A stretch of 52,302 bases of DNA, from assembly GCF_029255285.1 (NCBI RefSeq), contig NZ_JAPUVI010000110.1, positions 1-52,302 on the forward strand, given 5' to 3'. A program made the translations under genes and the position numbers. Positions within the stretch are counted from its first letter, which is position 1. Every line of letters begins with the position of its first letter. Under the pieces are notes generated by a model. It was not told the origin of the DNA, did no database searches, and saw only the letters and a list, made by a program, of their open reading frames with translations. This document shows positions 1-4,412 of the stretch, piece by piece. This DNA comes from Accumulibacter sp. (GTDB taxonomy: Bacteria; Pseudomonadota; Gammaproteobacteria; Burkholderiales; Rhodocyclaceae).

Positions 1-135
1 CAGCGGCACCCGGCGATCCTTGTTGCCTTTGGCGTCGCGGATATGCACGCGGGCGCGGGCGCCGTCGATGTCGGCGACGGTCAGCCGCAATCCTTCGCCC
101 AGGCGAAGCCCGAGACTGTAGAGAGGGTCATCAGC
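1..135 (-). pseudogene. Tyrosine recombinase (phage/integron-type integrase) fragment
   Basis: The minus strand reads a continuous segment with the hallmarks of the catalytic domain of a tyrosine site-specific recombinase: a YSLGLRLGEGLRL stretch holding the first catalytic Arg context, then a beta-strand pair ending in KGNKDRRVPL, the usual position of the conserved Lys. The window starts inside the gene, so the C-terminal part with the His-x-x-Arg and Tyr residues is not visible. In the upstream direction (higher coordinates) similarity stops around position 135, where CTCACG repeats begin, and no N-terminal domain or start codon is seen. It is therefore most likely a gene truncated by the adjacent repeat/transposase block. 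The family call rests on a short stretch; which recombinase subfamily cannot be told. Confidence 0.6.
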
Positions 136-147
136 ACTCAAGCACCA

Positions 148-474
148 ACTCACGCAACTCACGAACTCACGCACGCTCACGGGGTCACGCGCGCTCACGG
201 GGTCACGCGCGCTCACGGGTCAGCTCACGGGGTCACACACTCACGACACTCACGGGGTCAGGTCTTTCTTTTTTTCTTCCTCGCGGCAGCTCACGGGCAG
301 CTCACGCAGCTCACGCGCAGCTCACGGGGTCAGGTCTTTCTTTTTTTCTTCCTCGCAGCTCACGGGGTCCTCACGGGGTCAGGGTCCTCACGCGTCCTCA
401 CGGGGTCAGGTCTTGCTTTTTTTCTTCCTGGCGCACGGTCCTCACGGGGTCAGGTCTTTTTTTTTCTTCCTGGC
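148..474. repeat. Left array flanking the Y1 transposase (CTCACGGGGTC units)
   Basis: A degenerate tandem array of CTCACG and TCACGGGGTC units; I count nine TCACGGGGTC cores. Four of them extend into a longer unit of 34-36 bp: TCACGGGGTCAGGTCTT followed by a poly-T run and CTTCCT, at about 249-284, 321-356, 397-432 and 441-474. Two of these (254-268 and 326-340) contain GGGGTCAGGTCTTTC, the exact reverse complement of 1351-1365 on the other side of the transposase gene. Poly-T length is 7 in three copies and 9 in the last (457-465). The two copies nearest the gene form the 3' end of the transposase reading frame, including its stop. Confidence 0.85.
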
Positions 475-1318
475 GCGCGCATTCGCCGAGGCGCACGATC
501 TTGCTTACGCGGGAGTAGTGCAAACCGAAGTAATCGCCGATTTCCTTCAGGGTGTACCCGCCGCTCGCGTACGCCCCGGCGATGGCGCTGTTCCGATCGT
601 CGCATTGCCGTACGAAGTCAGCGAGAGGCTTTGGGACGGGCCGAGCCCGGGCCTGCGGAACCTCGCGCAGATCGCTGCCGGCAGGAAGGCGGCTGCGCAC
701 TGAATCGACAAACACGTCAGACCCCAGGAACAGTTGCTGTTTGAGTTGTCCCCACGGCGTCGTCGCTTGGCGGTGTCCTTCGGCAACGAAGCGACTGTAC
801 GCCGCAACCGCTTCCGGCATGGTCTCGCCGAATGCTGACAGGACCCACCGCGTCGCCAACCAGTCCGGCGTGCATTCATCGCCAATCGTCGCGCGATAGC
901 TGCTCCACTGCCAGTCTCCAGGAGTGCGGACCATCGCTGCACGAACCGGGTTGAGAACGACGTAGCGGGCGAGTTCCAGCAGGTAAGCGTCCTTTTCGAC
1001 CACTATTGCTTTGTAGCGACCTTGAAAGACGTGCCCGACGCGATGATGGGACTTGTTGAAAGCCTGCGTGTAGACACCGTTGAGCTGCCTCATGCCCTTG
1101 GAGAGATTCGCATCCGGCGTTTCTACGAGCAGGTGATAATGATTGCTCATCAAGCAGTACGCATGGATCGTCCAGTTGAAACGACCCACCACGCCGCTCA
1201 GCACCGCCAGAAACAAGCGCCGGTCCGCATCAGAGAGGTAGATGTCCTCTCTCCCGTCACCTCGCGCCGTAACGTGGTACAGGCCGCCAATAAACTCGAT
1301 GCGAAGTGGTCTTGCCAT
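398..1318 (-). CDS. REP-associated tyrosine transposase (RAYT, Y1/HUH family)
   Basis: A 306-residue single-strand DNA transposase of the IS200/IS605-related TnpA_REP group. It starts MARPLRIEF, the family's usual N-terminus, although an open frame extends upstream through the right array. The HUH metal-binding motif is His60-Tyr-His62 in SNHYHLL. The downstream segment ARYVVLNPVRA (about 117-127) is typical of RAYTs and carries Tyr119, a candidate nucleophile. A C-terminal helix-turn-helix (YTLKEIGDYFGLHYSRVSKIV) is also family-typical. These enzymes cut and join short hairpin/REP-like sequences. The last roughly 25 residues (RQEEKKRPDPV... QEEKKQDLTP) are translated directly from the left array, which is unusual. 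No second ORF or cargo is present. The start is flanked upstream by the G/T-rich (coding-strand) array, so its promoter is unclear. Confidence 0.9.
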   Translation of the reverse strand: MARPLRIEFIGGLYHVTARGDGREDIYLSDADRRLFLAVLSGVVGRFNWTIHAYCLMSNHYHLLVETPDANLSKGMRQLNGVYTQAFNKSHHRVGHVFQGRYKAIVVEKDAYLLELARYVVLNPVRAAMVRTPGDWQWSSYRATIGDECTPDWLATRWVLSAFGETMPEAVAAYSRFVAEGHRQATTPWGQLKQQLFLGSDVFVDSVRSRLPAGSDLREVPQARARPVPKPLADFVRQCDDRNSAIAGAYASGGYTLKEIGDYFGLHYSRVSKIVRLGECARQEEKKRPDPVRTVRQEEKKQDLTP

Positions 1319-1350
1319 GTGACTGATTCTAAGGTGCAACGGAGAAAAAT

Positions 1351-1585
1351 GAAAGACCTGACCCCACAACCTTATGACCCCACAACCTTGACCCCACAAC
1401 CCATGACCCCACAACCCATGACCCCACAACCACATGACCCCACAACCACAACCCCACAACCACAACCCCACAACCACAACCCCACAACCACAACCCCACA
1501 ACCACATGACCCCACAACCACACAACTGCACAAAAGACCTGACCCCACAACTGCACATGACCCCACAACTGCACACAACTGCACT
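1351..1585. repeat. Right array flanking the Y1 transposase (CCCCACAAC units)
   Basis: Thirteen CCCCACAAC units starting at 1362, 1378, 1392, 1407, 1422, 1438, 1452, 1466, 1480, 1494, 1510, 1543 and 1561. From 1438 to 1494 the period is exactly 14 bp (CCCCACAACCACAA); elsewhere it is mostly 14-16 bp, with ATGA insertions. The first unit is preceded by GAAAGACCTGA, making the 15-mer at 1351-1365 that is inverted relative to the left array; a second AAAGACCTGACCCC occurs near 1533-1546. Much of the tract (especially 1441-1500) is only A and C on the plus strand, so the minus strand has regularly spaced GGGG runs immediately upstream of the transposase start. Confidence 0.9.
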
Positions 1586-1958
1586 TTGGCAGAATTCATG
1601 CAACATATACTACACCGTCGCCGAATGGACGGCTTAGGCGAAATGAAGCCGCTACCCGTGGCCTTGCGGTCGACGAAATTTGATGTGGGGATACTCTGTG
1701 GGGGAAACGGGAGCGAGGACTGACAAGGGAGTCAGGAACCGACGCGCGAAGGCGGCAGACCGTCAGGCGCCGCGGCGAAAGAACTCATCGAGCGACGGCG
1801 GAAAGGAACCCGGCACCCGGCTGATCAAGCCAGCCCGCCGCGCTTCCGTTCAAGGTGCGCCCGAGAAGAGTTTTCTCCGCGCCGGTACGCCTCGGGTATC
1901 CCTCGGCGATCGCGCGTGTCTATACTTTAGTGTAGGCAACTTGTCCGGGAGAACGAAC
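1586..1958. other. Intergenic stretch between transposase array and amrB
   Basis: About 370 bp without a recognisable gene. I checked the minus strand for the missing N-terminal half of the recombinase at 1-135 and found nothing convincing. A TATACT hexamer at 1921-1926, 33 bp before the amrB start, could be a -10 element, but no good -35 is visible at the right spacing. A GGGAG Shine-Dalgarno lies at 1947-1951. Confidence 0.5.
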
Positions 1959-2780
1959 ATGATGAGTTACGCGGCAGAACCTATTCGGCCGGCGGCGGTG
2001 GCCGGCAGTTTCTATCCGGGATCGTCGGCGGTTCTGGCGCGCGATTTGCGTGCTTTGCTGAGTCGCGACACCGGGATCCCGGCCCGGCAGCCGAAGGCCA
2101 TCATCGCCCCGCATGCGGGCTATGTCTACTCGGGACCGATCGCCGCCCGCGTCTATGCCCCGCTCAGCGCCTGGCGGGCCGGCATCCGGCGCGTCGTGCT
2201 GCTCGGTCCGACGCATCGCGTCGCGGTCGATGGACTGGCCGTTCCGTCCTCGACGGCCTTCGCCACGCCGCTCGGGACGGTGCCGGTGGACCGGTCGGCC
2301 ATCGCTCTGATCGAGCAACTGCCGCAAGTTCTGGTGAGCGACGCGGCGCACGCTTTCGAGCACTCGCTGGAGGTGCAACTGCCGTTTCTGCAGAGCGTCC
2401 TCGACGAGTTCATGCTCGTTCCGCTGGCCGTCGGCCGCGCCTCGGCGACGCAGGTCGCCGAAGTGCTCGAATGCCTGTGGGGCGGCGACGAAACGCTGCT
2501 CGTGATCAGTTCCGACCTCTCGCACTATCTGCCCTACGGGCTGGCGCGCGAAACCGACACGGCGACCGCGCGCCAGATCGTGGCACTTGGTCCGCCGGTC
2601 GACCATCAGCAGGCCTGCGGTGCGACGCCGGTCAACGGCCTGCTGCTGGCCGCCCGTCGCCACGGGCTGCGGGCCCGGCTGGTCGACCTGCGTAACTCGG
2701 GAGACACCGCCGGCGACAAGTCGCGCGTCGTCGGTTACGGGGCTTTCGCCTTCAGCGCGGAGCCCGAACATGCTGGCTGA
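1959..2780 (+). CDS. amrB: AmmeMemoRadiSam system protein B (MEMO1 family)
   Basis: A 273-residue MEMO1-like protein, related in fold to non-haem-iron extradiol dioxygenases; its bacterial function is not established. Visible family motifs: IIAPHAGYVYSG near 48-59 with His52, GPTHR with His86, an EHSLEVQLPF segment (His135, Glu139), SSDLSHY (184-190) and CGATPVNG beginning at Cys220. These correspond to the His/Asp/Cys pocket residues of the family. I chose the first of two tandem ATG codons because GGGAG lies 7 bp upstream; the open frame extends further upstream but without family similarity. The gene overlaps amrA by 11 bp and is the first gene of a four-gene overlapping run. Confidence 0.9.
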   Translation: MMSYAAEPIRPAAVAGSFYPGSSAVLARDLRALLSRDTGIPARQPKAIIAPHAGYVYSGPIAARVYAPLSAWRAGIRRVVLLGPTHRVAVDGLAVPSSTAFATPLGTVPVDRSAIALIEQLPQVLVSDAAHAFEHSLEVQLPFLQSVLDEFMLVPLAVGRASATQVAEVLECLWGGDETLLVISSDLSHYLPYGLARETDTATARQIVALGPPVDHQQACGATPVNGLLLAARRHGLRARLVDLRNSGDTAGDKSRVVGYGAFAFSAEPEHAG

Positions 2781-3318
2781 CGCTCTCGGCAGGGCCCTGC
2801 TGAGCACCGCGCGCAACGCCATCGACCAGCGCTTCGGGCGGCCGGGGCAGGGCGTCGAACCGCTCCCGGAACTGAACGAGGCGGGTGCCAGCTTCGTGAC
2901 GCTGACCCGGGAAGGCCAGTTGCGCGGTTGCATCGGCAGTCTGGAAGCCTACCGTCCGCTGGCCATCGACGTGGCCGAAAACGCCATCGCCGCCGCCTTT
3001 CGCGATCCCCGCTTCGCGCCGCTGACGGTGTCCGAGTGGCCGCGCATCCGGGTCGAGGTTTCGCTGCTGACGCCGGCCGAGGACTTCCCGGTGGCCAGCG
3101 AGTCGGACGCTTTGAGCCGTCTGCGGCCCGGCGTGGACGGCGTGATCCTGAGCTATGGCAGGCGGCGCGCGACTTTCCTGCCGCAGGTCTGGGAATCGCT
3201 CCCCGAGCCGCGGCGCTTTCTGGCGCAGCTCAAGCTCAAGGCCGGGCTGGCGGCCGATTTCTGGCACGAGGATGTGGTCCTGGCGCGTTACGGAGTACGC
3301 AAATGGAAAGAGACGTGA
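2770..3318 (+). CDS. amrA: AmmeMemoRadiSam system protein A (AMMECR1 domain)
   Basis: A 182-residue AMMECR1-domain protein. The family signature LRGCIGS is at about 51-57, followed by the conserved FRDPRFAPLT segment and a terminal FLPQVWESLPEP. AMMECR1 proteins have no firmly known biochemical activity, but in bacteria they recur beside MEMO1 and radical-SAM genes. The ATG lies inside the 3' end of amrB (11-bp overlap), and the 3' end overlaps amrS by 16 bp, implying translational coupling and a linked function. Length is normal for a single-domain bacterial member. Confidence 0.92.
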   Translation: MLADALGRALLSTARNAIDQRFGRPGQGVEPLPELNEAGASFVTLTREGQLRGCIGSLEAYRPLAIDVAENAIAAAFRDPRFAPLTVSEWPRIRVEVSLLTPAEDFPVASESDALSRLRPGVDGVILSYGRRRATFLPQVWESLPEPRRFLAQLKLKAGLAADFWHEDVVLARYGVRKWKET

Positions 3319-4412
3319 AAGACTCGCCGAAAGTGCCGGAATCGGCTCATCCGGCCCGCTGGTGGCACACGATCGACGACCGACGGATCCAGTGCGACCT
3401 CTGTCCGCGCGATTGCCGGCTGCACGAAGGTCAGCGTGGCGCCTGTTTCGTGCGGCAGAACATCGGCGGTCAGATGGTGCTCACGACTTACGGCCGTTCT
3501 TCGGGCTTTTGCATCGATCCGATAGAGAAGAAGCCGCTCAACCACTTCCTCCCCGGTTCGTCGATCCTCTCCTTTGGCACCGCCGGCTGCAACCTGGCGT
3601 GCAAGTTCTGCCAGAACTGGGACATCTCGAAGTCGAAAGACATGGACCGTCTGCTCGACGCCGCCAGCCCGGAGGGCATCGCCGCCGCGGCGCTGGCCTA
3701 TGGCGCCGCATCGGTGGCCTTCACCTACAACGACCCGGTGATCTTCGCCGAGTACGCGATCGACACGGCGCTTGCCTGTCACGCGCGCGGCGTCCGGACG
3801 GTCGCCGTAACGGCCGCCTACATCCATGCGTTGCCGGCGCGCGAGTTCTACGCCGTGATGGACGCCGCGAACGTCGATCTGAAGGCTTTCAGCGATGATT
3901 TCTACTTCAAGCTTTGCGGCGGCCACCTGCAACCGGTACTCGACGTTCTGGCCTACATCCATCATGCCACCAAGTGCTGGCTCGAGATCACCACTCTGCT
4001 GATTCCCGGGCAGAACGACTCGAGCAGCGAGATCACGGCGCTCGCGCAATGGGTGGCGCGCGAACTGGGGCCGGATGTGCCGCTGCACTTCACCGCTTTC
4101 CACCCTGACTGGAAAATGGACGATCTGCCGCCGACGCCTCGCGCCACCCTGACGCGGGCGCGGCGTATCGCGCTCGACGCCGGTTTGCACTATGTCTACA
4201 CCGGAAACGTCCATGACAGCGAGGGCGGCACGACCTTCTGCCCGAGTTGCCAGGCGGCGCTGATCGAGCGTGACTGGTACGTCATCCGCCGTTACGATCT
4301 GCCCGCCGATGGCCGCTGCCCGCATTGCGCGACGCAGATCGCCGGCCACTTTGCGCGCTTCGGCAAGCCGTTCGGACCGCGCCGCGTACCGGTGCGGCTG
4401 GTGCGCCCTTGA
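3303..4412 (+). CDS. amrS: AmmeMemoRadiSam system radical SAM enzyme
   Basis: A 369-residue radical SAM protein related to PflA-type activases. The [4Fe-4S] cluster motif CxxxCxxC is Cys96-Cys100-Cys103 (CNLACKFC). An N-terminal Cys-rich segment (Cys31, Cys34, Cys38, Cys48) precedes it, and a C-terminal CPSC ... CPHC pair resembles a rubredoxin/zinc-ribbon-like or auxiliary-cluster site. The AFTYNDPVIF and LEITTLLIPGQND segments match the AmrS family. The substrate is unknown; overlap with amrA and amrB suggests they act together. The start ATG at 3303 overlaps the end of amrA. Confidence 0.93.
   Translation: MERDVKDSPKVPESAHPARWWHTIDDRRIQCDLCPRDCRLHEGQRGACFVRQNIGGQMVLTTYGRSSGFCIDPIEKKPLNHFLPGSSILSFGTAGCNLACKFCQNWDISKSKDMDRLLDAASPEGIAAAALAYGAASVAFTYNDPVIFAEYAIDTALACHARGVRTVAVTAAYIHALPAREFYAVMDAANVDLKAFSDDFYFKLCGGHLQPVLDVLAYIHHATKCWLEITTLLIPGQNDSSSEITALAQWVARELGPDVPLHFTAFHPDWKMDDLPPTPRATLTRARRIALDAGLHYVYTGNVHDSEGGTTFCPSCQAALIERDWYVIRRYDLPADGRCPHCATQIAGHFARFGKPFGPRRVPVRLVRP

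Follow-up and report, generated by a model that had tools for sequence, protein, structure and literature searches.

Terminal inverted repeats (TIRs) of TIRYT transposase genes, and mini- or solo ends elsewhere, can carry tandem arrays that follow a common rule. As read from the sequences, the repeated unit is the tip of the TIR, TGACCCC, together with usually 6-12 nt of the locus-specific sequence that adjoins it. The window, by which we mean the whole stretch of 52,302 nucleotides that was analyzed, holds a TIRYT element (a TIRtron) with an array at each end, and we give about even weight to the reading that both ends grew by tip-anchored capture of flanking sequence as the enzyme nicked, copied and rejoined DNA. 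The rule predicts a cut site, GACC|TGACCCC (the bar marks the break), and a product in which the tip and 6-12 nt of flank are added beside the body of the element. Because it gives a cut site, a product and a genetic read-out, TIRYT activity becomes testable. The footprint of the arrays at many related elements suggests how a poorly understood group of enzymes acts on DNA, and the rule ties together locus-specific mini-satellites that otherwise seem unrelated, in many genomes of the class that we sampled, which we take to be Gammaproteobacteria in GTDB's sense.

The TIRYT element of the window

The window is contig 110, starting at contig base 1, of a 4.19-Mb draft genome in 113 contigs. The assignment to Accumulibacter follows from a genome of the same genus, G005, whose contig C91 shares 2,373 identical bp with locus L147 of Accumulibacter sp. 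SCELSE-7. The gene between the two arrays (Table 1) belongs to the TIRYTs, Y1/HuH transposases that are members of the RAYT superfamily and are flanked by terminal inverted repeats. Its protein, P0001, matches PF01797 (Y1 transposase) in a profile search and scores 81.9 bits against NCBIfam NF047646 REP_Tyr_transpos (cut-off 80). The HuH motif is NHYH (residues 59-62) and the tyrosine motif is Y119-VVL-NP (Y-x3-NP). The predicted model has a mean pLDDT of 85.2 and a pTM of 0.67, and in a fold search with it E. coli TnpAREP 4er8_A ranked first (E 6.9e-8), followed by the ISDra2 and IS608 transposases. Helices are predicted in the C-terminus at residues 242-252, 257-264 and 268-287, a region that looks like an HTH, with no Pfam HTH match there at E<=0.001. 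P0001 is the single match in its own genome at that threshold. The reading frame continues past 413 to a stop at 398-400, within the downstream array, which provides the stop codon and duplicated codons; a 44-bp period at 389-480 lengthens the C-terminal reading frame.

Table 1. Coordinates of the features at the TIRYT locus of the window.
Feature	Position	Strand	Basis
Truncated tyrosine-recombinase (Phage_integrase) gene, presumed flank	1..123	-	PF00589, from profile position 31
Downstream array: CTCAC/GTGAG-type units, 8 GGGGTCA tips	143..480	.	repeat counts
TIR 15-mer copy within downstream array	254..268	+	exact match
TIR 15-mer copy within downstream array	326..340	+	exact match
Coding region of the TIRYT (Y1/HuH transposase), protein P0001	413..1318	-	profile, motif and fold evidence
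Innermost downstream TIR GGGGTCAGGTCTTTT	446..460	+	probable break at 452/453
Upstream TIR GGGGTCAGGTCTTTC, tip outward	1351..1365	-	probable C|T break at 1358/1359
Upstream array: TGACCCC tips, then ACAACC- or ACAACTGCACA-type sequence	1359..1585	.	9 TGACCCC, 13 CCCCACAAC

The sequence-only reading of this DNA had described an inverted 15-mer around the gene and a different array on each side, and both descriptions are borne out. The 15-mer GGGGTCAGGTCTTTC occurs twice in the downstream array, and its reverse complement lies on the other side of the gene. Downstream there are nine copies of CTCACGGGGTC (176-451); upstream there are 13 copies of CCCCACAAC (1362-1570), with the starts from 1438 to 1494 spaced exactly 14 bp apart. 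All 8 copies of GGGGTCA in the 52-kb window fall at 181-452 and all 9 copies of TGACCCC at 1359-1564, and long pieces of the TIR are present in four copies of the downstream array, at 254, 326, 402 and 446. With at most one mismatch, GGGGTCAGGTC occurs 6 times in the window, while 100 dinucleotide shuffles gave a mean of 1.06 and a maximum of 4. The two sides differ because the unit combines the tip with the locus-specific sequence just outside each end. We tried chance as the origin of the arrays and rejected it on the shuffles together with the distant-window, motif-free-scan and breakpoint controls described below.

At the upstream TIR end we found no stable hairpin, and neither strand folded better than its shuffles; structures at the downstream end were weak (z -1.30 and -0.65). 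The exact TIR 11-mer is not a dispersed REP, since 6 of its 7 copies in the whole draft genome are at the locus and 1 is at C98. The C98 copy belongs to a further TIR end, with one duplicated unit. The earlier naming of the gene as a RAYT, a type known to act on REP/REPIN hairpins, is only partly kept: the gene is of the RAYT superfamily and its arrays are unlike a standard REPIN, as had been said, but it is a TIRYT with plain TIRs, and the absence of a stable upstream hairpin and the few genomic copies of the TIR word led us to reject a REP/REPIN system.

TIRYTs were described as tyrosine transposases with flanking TIRs, some of which share GGGGWSAS (Di Nocera 2013, PMC3733652), and 20 of 26 TIRYT examples fall in TnpAY1 subclass 2.1 (Quentin 2018, PMC6006769). 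That subclass has NHVH or NH[YF]H, Y-x3-NP, no REP nearby and a long C-terminus that is HTH or DnaA_C-like (PMC6006769); P0001 resembles it in having NHYH and Y-x3-NP. Like a TIRtron, the window's RAYT-type Y1 gene has the inverted 15-mer on both sides, and GGGGTCAG, at both ends, fits GGGGWSAS (PMC3733652). Because the gene is of the type described in PMC3733652 and PMC6006769, the inverted 15-mer is an already known kind of terminal repeat. For A. phosphatis, PMC3733652 names two TIRYTs but no TIR repeats. Many TIR elements are dimeric or clustered according to the same paper, and in large REP clusters the units are repeated along with the DNA beside them; in the parts drawn on here, neither a tip-anchored unit nor a fixed break of the kind that we see is mentioned, and tandem TIR arrays go unmentioned in the corresponding parts of PMC6006769.

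Other known systems differ more. REPIN clusters are also reiterated with flanking sequence, and lie beside three RAYT genes (PLoS Genet 2011, PMC3116915), but as described in the portion we cite their unit is the whole REPIN with its flanks, whereas here it is a 7-nt tip with usually 6-12 nt and no hairpin. TnpAREP cleaves at CT in E. coli and S. maltophilia and at CT and CA in Marinomonas (PMC8266576), and the preferred break in our arrays, on the strand that reads TGACCCC, is likewise a C|T step; TnpAREP substrates are GTAG-tagged hairpins in the account given there, while the window's upstream end has no predicted stable hairpin. IS200/IS605 insertion sequences have Y-x3-Q, subterminal hairpins and several nearly identical copies, and are set apart by the Y-x3-NP of P0001 and by the single genomic copy and lack of a stable upstream hairpin here. 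REPtrons of RAYTs have GTAG-tagged hairpin REPs beside the gene and dispersed over the genome, and are set apart by that same lack, the weak downstream structures and the distribution of the TIR 11-mer. In the literature searched we found no report of the tip-anchored array rule at TIRYT ends. Papers containing GGGGTCAGGTC or GACCTGACCCC are not on transposases, judged by title and the start of the abstract, and searches for GGGGTCA, TGACCCC and TIRtron gave nothing relevant by title among the matches listed. Nor did the parts of the literature that we examined contain any biochemistry or tested substrate for subclass 2.1.

Two observations concern the surroundings of the element. The recombinase fragment at 1-123 is without its N-terminal part and is bounded by the start of the downstream array and the contig end. 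On the other side, consecutive Memo, AMMECR1 and radical SAM genes (1959-4409, + strand) adjoin the upstream array.

Tips, breakpoints and joins at related loci

At E<=0.001, P0001 has a match in 62 of 101 related genomes, its own included, many at low identity. We named 80 TIRYT loci, of which 68 have enough flank for tip counts. The sequence-only reading had proposed looking for its motif beside other RAYT-type genes, and tips are indeed found at the related transposase genes: GGGG[TA][CG]A occurs within 250 bp upstream in 47/68 loci, within 300 bp downstream in 32/68 and on both sides in 27/68, with at least two copies upstream in 18 and downstream in 16. Absence of the 15-mer beside other RAYTs, which that reading had named as a refutation, is thus not what we observed. 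Control windows 1.25 kb away gave 3, 3, 0 and 0 of 50. The exact motif is absent upstream in 21/68 loci and downstream in 36/68; since it was fixed beforehand, TIR variants such as AGGGTCAGG were missed. A motif-free scan for recurring 12-mers covered 57 of the 80 loci, hand-picked mostly for long upstream flanks (L157, L165, L172, L202, L208 and L215 were left out despite having 2 kb upstream). It placed them at 0-100 bp upstream in 10 loci, at 100-200 bp upstream in 5 and at 0-100 bp downstream in 9, with 0-3 loci in each of the other flank bins and 6 loci within the gene.

We examined breakpoints at 239 TIR ends of 107 transposase-selected loci, without requiring that the repeat retain the tip. 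Among them are the window and two or more loci that are present twice (L015/L147 and L020/L221); identical ends were counted once, and one array can contribute several ends. An adjacent tandem repeat was present at 67/239 ends, and its start was exactly GACC|TGACCCC in 33 of these, from 28 loci. No other offset exceeded 5, the count reached by both -2 and +6; the remaining 34 begin elsewhere, some by chance extension. Control words gave 19/820, most of the 15 listed lying in TIR arrays (11 in L034), and random positions, which could fall in arrays, gave 67/6,420. In L200, whose tip is the variant TGACACC, duplication occurred at the same border.

The unit consists of the tip and a suffix of the sequence just beyond the outermost tip, as in L113, L093, L160 and L186; L105, where the spacers differ from the flank, is an exception. 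From this match to the outermost flank, the spacers appear to be host DNA. In the transposase-selected set, GGGGTC is followed by A in 88/97 units, many of them from the array of L034. A break at GGGGTCA^ fits 89/128 templated joins (28/42 in the transposase-selected set) and misfits 39/128; the array-selected loci came from patterns that keep the tip. The copied flank is 6-12 nt long in 83/89 joins, and longer than 12 nt in 3; the lower limit is due in part to our requirement for 6 or more matching bases.

Microhomology of 0/1/2/3/4 nt was seen in 24/10/6/1/2 of 43 templated joins in the transposase-selected set and in 51/23/10/3/1 of 89 in the array-selected set, which has one further join with 11 nt. 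Blunt joining would give about 56/28/11/4/2% by a hand calculation with equal base frequencies, so that microhomology at the templated joins is no greater than blunt joining predicts. Filler of 1-24 nt, for which a single templated join does not account, is found in 36/79 joins (transposase-selected) and 33/122 (array-selected), which speaks against one clean rule. At the far end, re-entry is at CA in 31/89 joins vs 10.9 expected, a count that includes the CA of the previous tip; within host flank a CA start is found in 12/54 joins vs 5.4 expected (p 0.0045), which is a weak base preference.

Among pairs of successive spacers that differ by CA, 12/13 have the longer spacer on the body side (both sets together), a polarity that puts the newest unit next to the element body. 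Searches of 28 genomes of the genus with L093, L101, L104 and window positions 1500-2100 gave no clean single-event empty site, and neither did a comparison among the fetched loci, within the matches listed. Between L266 and L267 there is a difference of a 1.76-kb island that carries an arrayed mini-element and is absent from the related genome.

Arrays across genomes, with and without a transposase gene

Of the 101 related genomes, 21 contain a triple GGGGTCA pattern, whose reversed control gave 3 matches in 2 genomes. The looser triple GGGGTC pattern matched in 62/274 genomes of the class sample and its reversed control in 75/274, and single matches to the looser pattern are therefore not evidence alone. 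In the class sample the array pattern is present in 33/63 genomes that have a strong TIRYT match (E<=1e-60) vs 29/211 that have none (p 1.5e-9, uncorrected for phylogeny and assembly quality); the reversed control gave 24/63 vs 51/211 (p 0.036). Among the relatives the figures, likewise uncorrected for phylogeny and assembly quality, are 14/27 with a strong TIRYT match vs 7/74 without. Some of the matches in the 29 genomes look like ordinary repeats.

By hand count there are 47 array clusters, and we examined 43, leaving out four palindrome-like clusters of G072. Ten of these have a TIRYT match in their region (L086, L087, L096 twice, L100, L115 twice, the window twice and G071:C42), while 33/43 have none within about 4 kb on each side, or less at contig ends. 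Regions L080-L114 have a TIRYT match in 4/35. The association of arrays with the transposase, on which the sequence-only reading relied, thus holds in that arrays recur at TIRYTs, but an adjacent gene is not needed, and we rejected it as a requirement. The seats of the arrays are short inverted pairs in some cases and single ends in others. P0001 has matches in 25 plasmid records, only 2 of which align with 80% or more of its length, and viral contigs gave 3 array matches.

Several loci show further features. In L115 (G009 C1:3397700-3413700), from a single-contig genome, two TIRYT copies lie 7,648 bp apart, and their arrays have 14 tips each, spaced alike in both. L103 and L105, from two genomes, have the same tip and share another inner sequence, GGGGTCACCCATTAGCCGG.... 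The arrays of L095 and L106 adjoin one common sequence, which may resemble an integron attC site.

Proposed mechanism and its alternatives

On the reading that we give about even weight, the TIRYT would nick a single strand between C and T in CAAGACC|TGACCCC, and its tyrosine would retain the 5' end. The free 3' end would then be extended by about 13-19 nt through displacement synthesis, copying the tip and the adjoining DNA, before attacking the phosphotyrosine and rejoining, which would leave one extra unit next to the body. The expected product is a blunt join with flank-specific sequence, formed at either end independently. Repeated rounds would build the array, and long identical runs might later expand by slippage or recombination. 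The enzyme could also act in trans on mini-elements and solo ends, which would explain why these carry arrays. The sequence-only reading had offered enzymatic cutting and copying as a source of the arrays, and given the recurrent tips and the arrays at related genes this is the best reading, with the enzymatic steps themselves conjectural. In its favor are also the preferred break, the blunt joins, the polarity, the length of copied flank, the association across genomes, the first rank of TnpAREP in the fold search and the CT cleavage by TnpAREP (PMC8266576). Against it stand the joins with filler, the templated joins and repeats that do not fit the preferred break, the weak preference at the far end, the array clusters and genomes without a TIRYT match, the loci that lack the exact tip motif, and the searches that gave no clean empty site.

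That reading had also offered replication slippage. In this alternative, the TIR tips would be the site of slippage or of unequal recombination, with bound transposase or fork stalling as a possible trigger, and the arrays would arise with no enzymatic cutting and joining. The units are short, many in the window vary by small indels, and long identical runs exist (10 identical spacers in L034, and 13 tips at a 9-bp period in L196). Slippage could enlarge any array after a first duplication and may contribute to later expansion, and probably to the long identical runs. As the first step it is disfavored because the templated junctions show no excess microhomology, and one dinucleotide is preferred as the break with a polarity towards the body; as a full account we consider it unlikely, if still the strongest competitor. 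Somewhat more doubtful is a cut-and-join between sister strands, in which the C|T step and a second site in the flank are cut and the wrong partners joined without synthesis, or a tiny circle is re-inserted. The preferred break, the blunt joins and the short distance all fit, the far-end CA preference could mark a second cleavage site, and both cleavage and strand transfer by TnpAREP occur in vitro (PMC8266576). The far end, however, has no consistent dinucleotide, with 42/54 host-flank joins starting with other than CA, and because its base preference is weak the data do not establish a second enzymatic cut.

Selection for multiple sites, with GGGGTCA as an operator or binding site of the TIRYT C-terminus whose copies tune expression or titrate the enzyme, would be in keeping with the predicted C-terminal helices and with an upstream array that by its position spans the presumed promoter region. 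Yet 16/68 loci have at least two tips downstream as well, arrays exist with no gene nearby, and the preferred break and the captured flank would be left unexplained, so that we regard it as very improbable. A short-read assembly artefact, which the sequence-only reading had named as something that would undo its case, is the least credible of all. The first base of the window is indeed a contig end, in a draft of 113 contigs, but the same architecture appears in many separate assemblies, and as a general cause misassembly is unlikely because arrays are found in the single-contig genomes G009 and G075 and in the chromosome records CP054864.1 and CP024202.1.

Extending nicking, copying and rejoining from the window to the whole group is a more tentative step. 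TIRYTs could perhaps be nick-extend-rejoin enzymes in general, each TIR end lengthening itself into a micro-array in which the site of insertion is recorded. If true, a domesticated Y1 transposase would here be carrying out a rolling-circle-like reaction that is abortive. The rule itself may reach beyond this tip: around G256 C11:259064-259272 (L119), two inverted ends with the tip GGGGTCGGAGTC carry arrays on both, which suggests that it extends to other tip families.
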